Origin: an uncultured Pelagibacteraceae bacterium
GTDB taxonomy: Bacteria > Pseudomonadota > Alphaproteobacteria > Pelagibacterales > Pelagibacteraceae
Length of the DNA stretch: 64,000 bases
Reading direction: 5' to 3'
Assembly: GCA_902573755.1 (NCBI GenBank)
Contig: CACGLD010000001.1
Span: forward strand, 1 to 64,000
Below the pieces are notes generated by a model, which ran no database searches, was not told the DNA's origin, and saw only the letters and a list, made by a program, of their open reading frames with translations. A program made the position numbers and the translations under genes. How positions within the stretch are numbered: position 1 is the stretch's first letter; each line of letters starts with the position of its first letter. This document shows positions 27,734 through 28,762 of the stretch, in pieces.

Positions 27734-28030
27734 CTATAGATAGTCACCTTTTTTAATTTTACTAGCTATTTCTTTTCTAGAATATTCAAATTTTTTTCGA
27801 TGTTTTATACTTTTTTGATTTACTCTTTTTCTCCATAACCTGAAAGATGATGGTTTTAGAGATCTTCGCATAATCTTAATTACATCAGATTCTTTCTTTC
27901 CTGTTTTTTTTTCAATTTCCTCGAAAGTGATCCTATCTGCCCACGCTGCCCAAATGATCCAATCCGGATCGTCCATTTTGGGCTCTGGGTTTTTGACTCT
28001 AGTAACTGGTCTGTGACCTTTTTTTTTCAT
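27734..28030 (-). CDS. DUF2805 family protein
   Basis: DPDWIIWAAWADRITFEEIEKKTGKKESDVIKIMRRSLKPSSFRLWRKRV. Confidence 0.85.
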   Translation of the reverse strand: MKKKGHRPVTRVKNPEPKMDDPDWIIWAAWADRITFEEIEKKTGKKESDVIKIMRRSLKPSSFRLWRKRVNQKSIKHRKKFEYSRKEIASKIKKGDYL

Positions 28031-28078
28031 AAATCCTTTATATTTGAAAAAAAAATTTAATGCATTTTTTTTAGCCTC

Positions 28079-28087
28079 TGATATTAT
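28079..28087 (+). promoter_or_regulatory. Putative extended -10 promoter element upstream of LysE-family gene
   Basis: TGATATTAT (TGn-TATTAT) ends 6 nt before the base of the 28093-28141 hairpin; no good -35. Confidence 0.45.
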
Positions 28088-28092
28088 GTCTT

Positions 28093-28147
28093 AGATAGTC
28101 CTTCTTAGCCATCTTTAGCTCCCGGTTTTTAAGGACTATCTTTTTTT
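28093..28147 (+). promoter_or_regulatory. Leader hairpin with terminator-like U-tract and sequestered SD (candidate cis-regulatory RNA or small RNA)
   Basis: AGATAGTCCTT (28093-28103) pairs perfectly with AAGGACTATCT (28131-28141), 27-nt loop, T-run 28141-28147, ATG at 28148. Confidence 0.65.
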
Positions 28148-28762
28148 ATGCTCCCCTTAGATTTCATACTTTACTTACAGATAATAATTTTTTTATTCAT
28201 TACACCTGGAACTCCTAGAGTTGTGATTATTTCTTATTCAATGAATTATGGAGTTGGAAAATGTGTTTGGTCGGCATTAGGGGATGTAACAGCAAATTTT
28301 ATTCAAGCAACATTAGTAATATTTGTAATAGGATCTTTTTTTTCTGAGAACTCAACAATATTAAATATATTTAAATGGATAGGAGTAATTTATATTTTAT
28401 ATCTTGCTTACGATATTTATAAATCACGTCCAAAAACTATTTCAAGTGAAGGAGATATAAAAAAAAGTAACTTATCTTTCTTTAGAGATGGTTTCTTAGT
28501 GGCTGGAACAAGTCCAAAAGCCTGGATGTTTTTTCCTTTTATATTTCCCCAATTTATTGACTTTAATTCAAATTTATTGGCACAATTTGTAATTTTAATT
28601 ACAACTTACATTGTTTTAGATTTTTTATCTCTGATTGGTTATGCGATGCTTGCACAGAAACTAATTAATTGGATAACTGCTAATCCAAAAACAATTAATA
28701 CAATTTCTGCGAGTGTTTTAGTAATTATTGCTGTAATAATTGTTATAACACAGCAATATTAA
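28148..28762 (+). CDS. LysE/RhtB family amino-acid exporter
   Basis: FLFITPGTPRVVIISYSMNYGVGKCVWSALGD and multi-TM pattern. Confidence 0.9.
   Translation: MLPLDFILYLQIIIFLFITPGTPRVVIISYSMNYGVGKCVWSALGDVTANFIQATLVIFVIGSFFSENSTILNIFKWIGVIYILYLAYDIYKSRPKTISSEGDIKKSNLSFFRDGFLVAGTSPKAWMFFPFIFPQFIDFNSNLLAQFVILITTYIVLDFLSLIGYAMLAQKLINWITANPKTINTISASVLVIIAVIIVITQQY

Follow-up and report, generated by a model that had tools for sequence, protein, structure and literature searches.

The rhtB hairpin RNA of Pelagibacteraceae as a putative antisense regulator of a polybasic micropeptide

What is the role of a compact hairpin that lies, behind its own predicted promoter, between two divergent genes of a marine bacterium? 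The question is raised by a 64,000-nucleotide (nt) stretch of contig CACGLD010000001.1 from a member of the Pelagibacteraceae (hereafter the window, to which all unprefixed positions refer). Pelagibacter is among the most abundant bacteria of the ocean and, to our knowledge, few regulators are known in the SAR11 clade. A preliminary description of the window had proposed an undescribed RNA, acting either as an attenuator or Shine–Dalgarno (SD)-sequestering switch for the LysE-family gene downstream, or as a small RNA of roughly 55 nt. Of these options, the small RNA is retained in kind, whereas the switch is abandoned for reasons given below. The best explanation of the data, in which we have considerable confidence, is that the hairpin acts as a trans-acting antisense small RNA (sRNA) of ~55 nt repressing the mRNA of a polybasic micropeptide.

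The hairpin element comprises the following features:

28058..28064, plus strand: TAATGCA, −35-like promoter element of the sRNA, almost unchanged across 47 aligned loci

28076-28158, plus strand: full match to the Rfam family RF01814 (cmscan)

28079..28087, plus strand: extended −10 box TGATATTAT, whose TGnTA part is invariant (sequence and alignment)

28093..28141, plus strand: rhtB RNA hairpin (cmscan, fold z-score, stem covariation)

28105..28123, plus strand: antisense segment TTAGCCATCTTTAGCTCCC, complementary to the SD and AUG of a polybasic micro-open reading frame (micro-ORF) mRNA encoded elsewhere

28141..28147, plus strand: T-tract that probably terminates the ~55-nt RNA of the window genome; only part of the family has one

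The stem is made of 11 perfect base pairs (bp; 28093-28103 with 28131-28141) and closes a 27-nt loop, CTTAGCCATCTTTAGCTCCCGGTTTTT, at 28104-28130. The first of the seven T doubles as the final stem base, and the tract runs up to the exporter ATG at 28148; these positions, and that of the extended −10, are as the preliminary description had them. The TAATGCA box supplies the −35 hexamer AATGCA with a spacer of 17. Both promoter boxes are kept across the aligned loci, TGnTA being identical in all 47 and TAATGCA almost so. The predicted fold (−18.2 kcal/mol, z = −4.36) is reached by none of 200 shuffled sequences, and the comparison with leaders of related genomes revealed a conserved loop together with changes on both sides of the stem, of a compensatory kind, at five pairs (0 of 500 shuffles; sliding controls much lower). 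The RNA itself is not undescribed: a single Rfam match was obtained in the whole window, to RF01814 ‘rhtB’, published in 2009 (81.9 bits for a gathering cut-off of 55; model positions 1–83 of 83).

The main result was reached through a second, weak and noise-like RF01814 match in one genome (G155, 30.5 bits), which turned out to be no hairpin at all, but the start of a tiny ORF, CAGGGAGCTAAAGATGGCTAAAAGAAGA, encoding MAKRRKKA.... Indeed, the invariant loop of the hairpin, UUAGCCAUCUUUAGCUCCC, is perfectly antisense to GGGAGCUAAAGAUGGCUAA, which comprises SD and start codon of this micro-ORF, and TTAGCCATCTTTAGCTCCC is the reverse complement of the micro-ORF start, namely the SD GGGAG, six nucleotides, ATG and GCT AA. 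Since the loop is thus the reverse complement of a ribosome-binding site (RBS) and start codon, the element is most likely a regulatory sRNA that would block the corresponding protein.

This complementarity is a general property of the window's genus. The sequence GGGAGCTAAAGATGGCTAA was detected with up to three mismatches in 141 of 151 genomes, often twice, i.e. in the hairpin and at one other site, where one and the same gene begins in every case; the reversed control pattern, with the same tolerance, was empty in nearly all of the 151. In the 52 genomes from which both loci were first extracted, pairing extends over 18–19 contiguous bp, or over 14 bp followed by a mismatch and further pairs (in a clade with AUGCC at the target), and a hairpin variant, GAGAGC in genome G246, retains the pairing as G–U. 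Predicted duplex energies range from −38.8 to −49.1 kcal/mol, against a mean of −16.1 and a best value of −25.9 for 195 other gene starts, taken from the window and the extracted loci with the hairpin's own antisense left out. In the two targets folded, the SD is predicted to be unpaired, with a hairpin upstream in the 5′ untranslated region (5′UTR). A complementarity of this kind, conserved and directed at the SD and start codon of an mRNA from another locus, also characterizes RBS-blocking sRNAs.

We propose that a dedicated extended −10 promoter, with a start near 28093-28095, would drive plus-strand transcription of an sRNA of ~55 nt, which would fold into one hairpin with UUAGCCAUCUUUAGCUCCC presented in the loop. 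This loop would pair with GGGAGCUAAAGAUG(G/C)CUAA, comprising SD and start codon of the micropeptide mRNA, which is monocistronic and unlinked to the hairpin. As the loop covers SD, spacer and AUG, it should block initiation: the duplex would prevent ribosome binding and thereby repress peptide synthesis.

The two loci also share their state at position −1. It is G at both in 53 genomes and A at both in 13; no discordant case occurs among these 66 genomes in which the two loci were found. A search of 399 genomes of the genus for a base other than G at −1 (GGGAGCTAAAHATGNC) returned 17 genomes, of which 13 have A at both loci, on different contigs, three have one locus only (no G-type copy was found in these three) and one matched at an unrelated site. 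A joint change of sRNA and target is therefore found at −1; at +4, the hairpin does not follow the target in one clade. The number of switches depends on the tree considered. The target-neighbour gene tree gives six changes and the combined tree four, each with at least three on strong branches, and both reject one clade (approximately unbiased test, p-AU 1.6e-44 and 9e-79, respectively), whereas trees from the hairpin side (LysE, DUF2805, both together) do not (p-AU 0.20, 0.56 and 0.79). Recombination at either locus could explain this disagreement. In a further genus (g14), a trial for additional joint changes, limited to one incomplete genome, was without success.

Genera without the hairpin offer a natural comparison. 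They keep the micro-ORF, but the region from SD to AUG drifts, with 14 spacer variants in 19 loci (among them GGGAGATAAAGAUG, GGGAGAAAAGAUG, GGGAGTTTAAGAUG and GGGAGGAACGGAGAUG) versus two variants in 70 loci of the hairpin type. No second, antisense copy of their own target sequence was found in the sampled genomes of these genera. Judged from these alignments, constraint on the SD–AUG region is relaxed where the sRNA is absent.

These observations bear on the possibility that the loop and the micro-ORF start bind a common third partner, a protein or another RNA, rather than one another. A shared conserved sequence of 16–19 nt would look identical in that case, and concordance at −1 is expected under either view. 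However, the hairpin carries the shared sequence as its antisense, in the loop and behind a promoter on that strand, and the match is centred on SD and AUG; changes confined to the hairpin include one that is G–U compatible; and the genera lacking the hairpin retain the gene, not the spacer. We thus leave only a small chance to a third partner and prefer direct pairing.

The putative target is a monocistronic gene, unlinked to the hairpin and present across the Pelagibacteraceae, with an ORF of 21–35 amino acids (e.g. MAKRRKKAKKKAKKKAKKRRRRR). The transcription unit comprises its own TTGACA promoter, a 5′UTR hairpin (CGAATC/GATTCG), an SD, the ORF of 21–35 codons and a terminator. Roughly 75% of the peptide is Lys and Arg, and almost only K, R and A occur in it. 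The 70 target ORFs encode 30 distinct peptides, nine of which are specified by more than one DNA sequence, and differences at the three codon positions number 21, 86 and 184. This distribution and the synonymous encodings indicate a protein-coding gene under selection for composition, and the micro-ORF looks protein-coding on these grounds. No family was found for the micropeptide in Pfam and NCBIfam, and our literature searches returned no paper on a SAR11 protamine or histone-like nucleoid protein. From its composition alone, the micropeptide probably binds nucleic acid, as a nucleoid or ribosome factor resembling protamines or histone H1 tails.

Targets in the window's genus were collected first by a sequence pattern, and a pattern-independent search with R1, a covariance model of target leader and ORF start, recovered the same genes. 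With this model the gene was detected in 156 of 197 genomes of the family, covering 12 of 14 genera; in the order sample it matched 58 genomes, none of which belongs to the sister family f2. Weak second R1 matches (about 35 bits; G051:C1:34797-34901 and G093:C4:82622-82726) may represent either a paralogous basic peptide or noise from low-complexity sequence.

Several individual loci illustrate the range of the gene. In G026, the target (L129:1511-1600, C1 about 410,512) is a 29-amino acid polybasic ORF, MATKKKAKKAKKKTKKKAKKAKKAKKRKR, with strong promoter, 5′UTR hairpin and terminator, and is short enough for annotation to miss. In G155 (L052), the micro-ORF lies between an acyl-CoA synthetase gene and a CarD-like gene. 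Every target locus has the 6-bp hairpin CGAATC/GATTCG, unchanged, immediately before the SD of the micro-ORF. Genera that lack the sRNA show comparable repeats, and the hairpin may serve as a further regulatory element or as a stabilizer. The target leaders of genera g7 and g9 (L240, L241, L244) differ in their spacer, GGGAGGAACGGAGATGG, and in the greater length of the upstream hairpin, which contains GATGCTCCAAAC; this may hint at different control. Finally, a 58-amino acid counterpart in genus g12 (G040, L242:641-817) carries KPAAKKRKPA repeats and resembles bacterial histone-H1-like tails.

The genes flanking the hairpin are those expected from the preliminary description, i.e. a divergent gene upstream and a LysE-family gene downstream:

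27734..28030, minus strand: divergent DUF2805 gene (PF10985), the neighbour kept most often (67 of 74 loci)

28148..28762, plus strand: LysE/RhtB-type exporter gene (PF01810, E 6e-20), a frequent but dispensable neighbour

A leader acting in cis on rhtB, as an attenuator or SD-sequestering switch that might respond to a ligand, would account for the start of rhtB 22–34 nt beyond the loop in 55 of 74 loci, for the AAGGA within the stem of the window genome and for T-tracts of at least seven nucleotides in 13 of 47 loci. A riboswitch or attenuator of this type would be expected to show constant linkage to rhtB. Yet no LysE gene was found by the hairpin in the other 19 of the 74 loci (one of which is cut by a contig end), and it is because these loci keep the same promoter and loop that the cis-regulatory reading fails. 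In two genomes (G155 and G246), neither LysE nor DUF2805 was found within about 1.2–1.5 kb of the hairpin. Neither a conserved terminator nor a conserved SD-sequestering switch is apparent, as the T-run is of 0–3 nt in 34 of 47 loci and AAGGA is replaced by UAGGA or UUGGA in other clades. In addition, the best conserved part of the element is the loop, which matches the SD and AUG of another mRNA. A cis leader thus keeps only a slim probability. As to the sRNA, the scarcity of T-runs of at least seven nucleotides implies that in many genomes the RNA would need processing from the next transcript or would read into it; where no terminator follows, it might be released from the rhtB leader.

A function of the minus strand would be consistent with the good SD–ATG at 28123-28110 and with the constancy of DUF2805 as a neighbour; this strand would then carry either a leader mini-ORF for DUF2805 (SD GGGAG, ATG GCT AAG ...) or a decoy of the micro-ORF RBS. 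The length of the mini-ORF, however, varies from 2 to 125 codons, being most often 3, and it is the plus strand that bears the promoter and the T-tract, so that such a function is highly improbable. The leader peptide MAKKDYLRHNIRG was rejected as not conserved. In the window, the corresponding mini-ORF (MAKKDYLRHNIRG*, 28071-28112, minus strand) is a by-product of the antisense loop.

Meyer et al. described the rhtB element from Ca. Pelagibacter ubique and from marine metagenomes (about 1250 sequences). They noted that the loop is conserved, that about half of the copies have a T-tract and that an inverted repeat is present; they left the function unassigned and raised cis-regulation of rhtB, a terminator and a DNA inverted repeat as possibilities (PMC2704228). 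An ordinary intrinsic terminator, or an inverted repeat at the DNA level without RNA function, would fit the T-tract of the window genome, but is almost certainly not the answer: the element lies between divergent genes, its loop is strongly conserved, its stem changes are compensatory and most loci lack the T-tract. A prophage or attachment-site origin was also considered and discarded, since 2.9 million viral contigs contained no exact copy of the loop core.

In strain HTCC1062, the motif was reported in the gap 1297623-1297755 (PMC2704228); the gene context there equals that of the window, and we recovered this copy at 1297616-1297698 of genome G026. RF01814 exceeds its cut-off in 50 of 197 genomes of the family, nearly all from the window's genus, as a bulged hairpin with conserved loop, and the public contigs matching it bear nearly exclusively Pelagibacteraceae or SAR11 titles. 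One contig labelled as a Cytophagales metagenome-assembled genome (L304, JAPYTU010000121.1) carries the SAR11 rhtB loop and is probably a mis-binned SAR11 contig. In genus g4, a weak match (G162, 34.7 bits) comes from an ordinary repeat that resembles a terminator. Our literature search returned no paper mentioning RF01814 by its identifier. The hairpin is already known; what is new relative to the description of 2009, as far as could be searched, is the proposed trans target and antisense role.

Several observations weigh against a trans-acting antisense sRNA. The terminator T-tract is absent from most loci. The +4 mismatch (target AUGCC) is uncompensated in 24 of 52 pairs, all in one clade; the sRNA base concerned also pairs within the hairpin (inner helix AGCC/GGUU), which may lock it in place and plausibly explains why it stays. 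A single event may underlie the G/A switch, as the hairpin-side trees allow. Genus g13 (69% complete), in which the hairpin was not found, has the consensus spacer. The target was not found in G147, G153 and G191, nor in the window's own draft genome; as this draft is 69% complete, the pair is deduced there from near relatives (e.g. G169 and G193). Lastly, while the sequence data show the hairpin, its complementarity to SD and AUG, its conservation, the concordant G/A state and the relaxed constraint without the sRNA, we infer from them transcription, repression and the role of the peptide.

The best analogue of the proposed mechanism is the pair IhtA–hctA of Chlamydia, in which loop 1 of the sRNA occludes the AUG of the mRNA of a histone-like, DNA-condensing protein (PMC4355289, PMC3469542). 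IhtA has 107 nt and three stem-loops, and pairs via 7 nt around the AUG, not the SD (PMC4355289). In both systems, a trans-encoded sRNA would cover, with a hairpin loop, the start codon (AUGGC core) of a message for a protein that is small and very basic. The rhtB RNA differs in its one stem-loop, in a pairing of 18–19 nt from the SD to beyond the AUG and in a target of 21–35 amino acids; the likeness is one of mode of action, and no homology is claimed. In type I toxin–antitoxin systems (e.g. IstR-1/tisB), a trans-encoded antisense RNA likewise blocks translation of a very short protein, and the toxins are hydrophobic and membrane-spanning. The likeness ends with a small antisense RNA directed against a very short protein: the micropeptide is polybasic rather than hydrophobic, and the rhtB RNA and micro-ORF loci are unlinked, single copy and conserved genus-wide.

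Taken further, it is on balance probable that Pelagibacter controls an apparently unannotated protamine-like micropeptide, perhaps one that compacts the nucleoid or silences ribosomes, by a dedicated single-hairpin antisense sRNA, in convergence with IhtA–hctA. The analysis offers a concrete, testable function for an orphan SAR11 RNA family known since 2009 and reveals a widespread polybasic micropeptide gene of the Pelagibacteraceae outside Pfam and NCBIfam families. It also illustrates that an Rfam family named for a neighbouring gene can mislead on the target. If true, the rhtB RNA would be a second, apparently independent case of an sRNA that masks a start codon and thereby gates a histone- or protamine-like protein.
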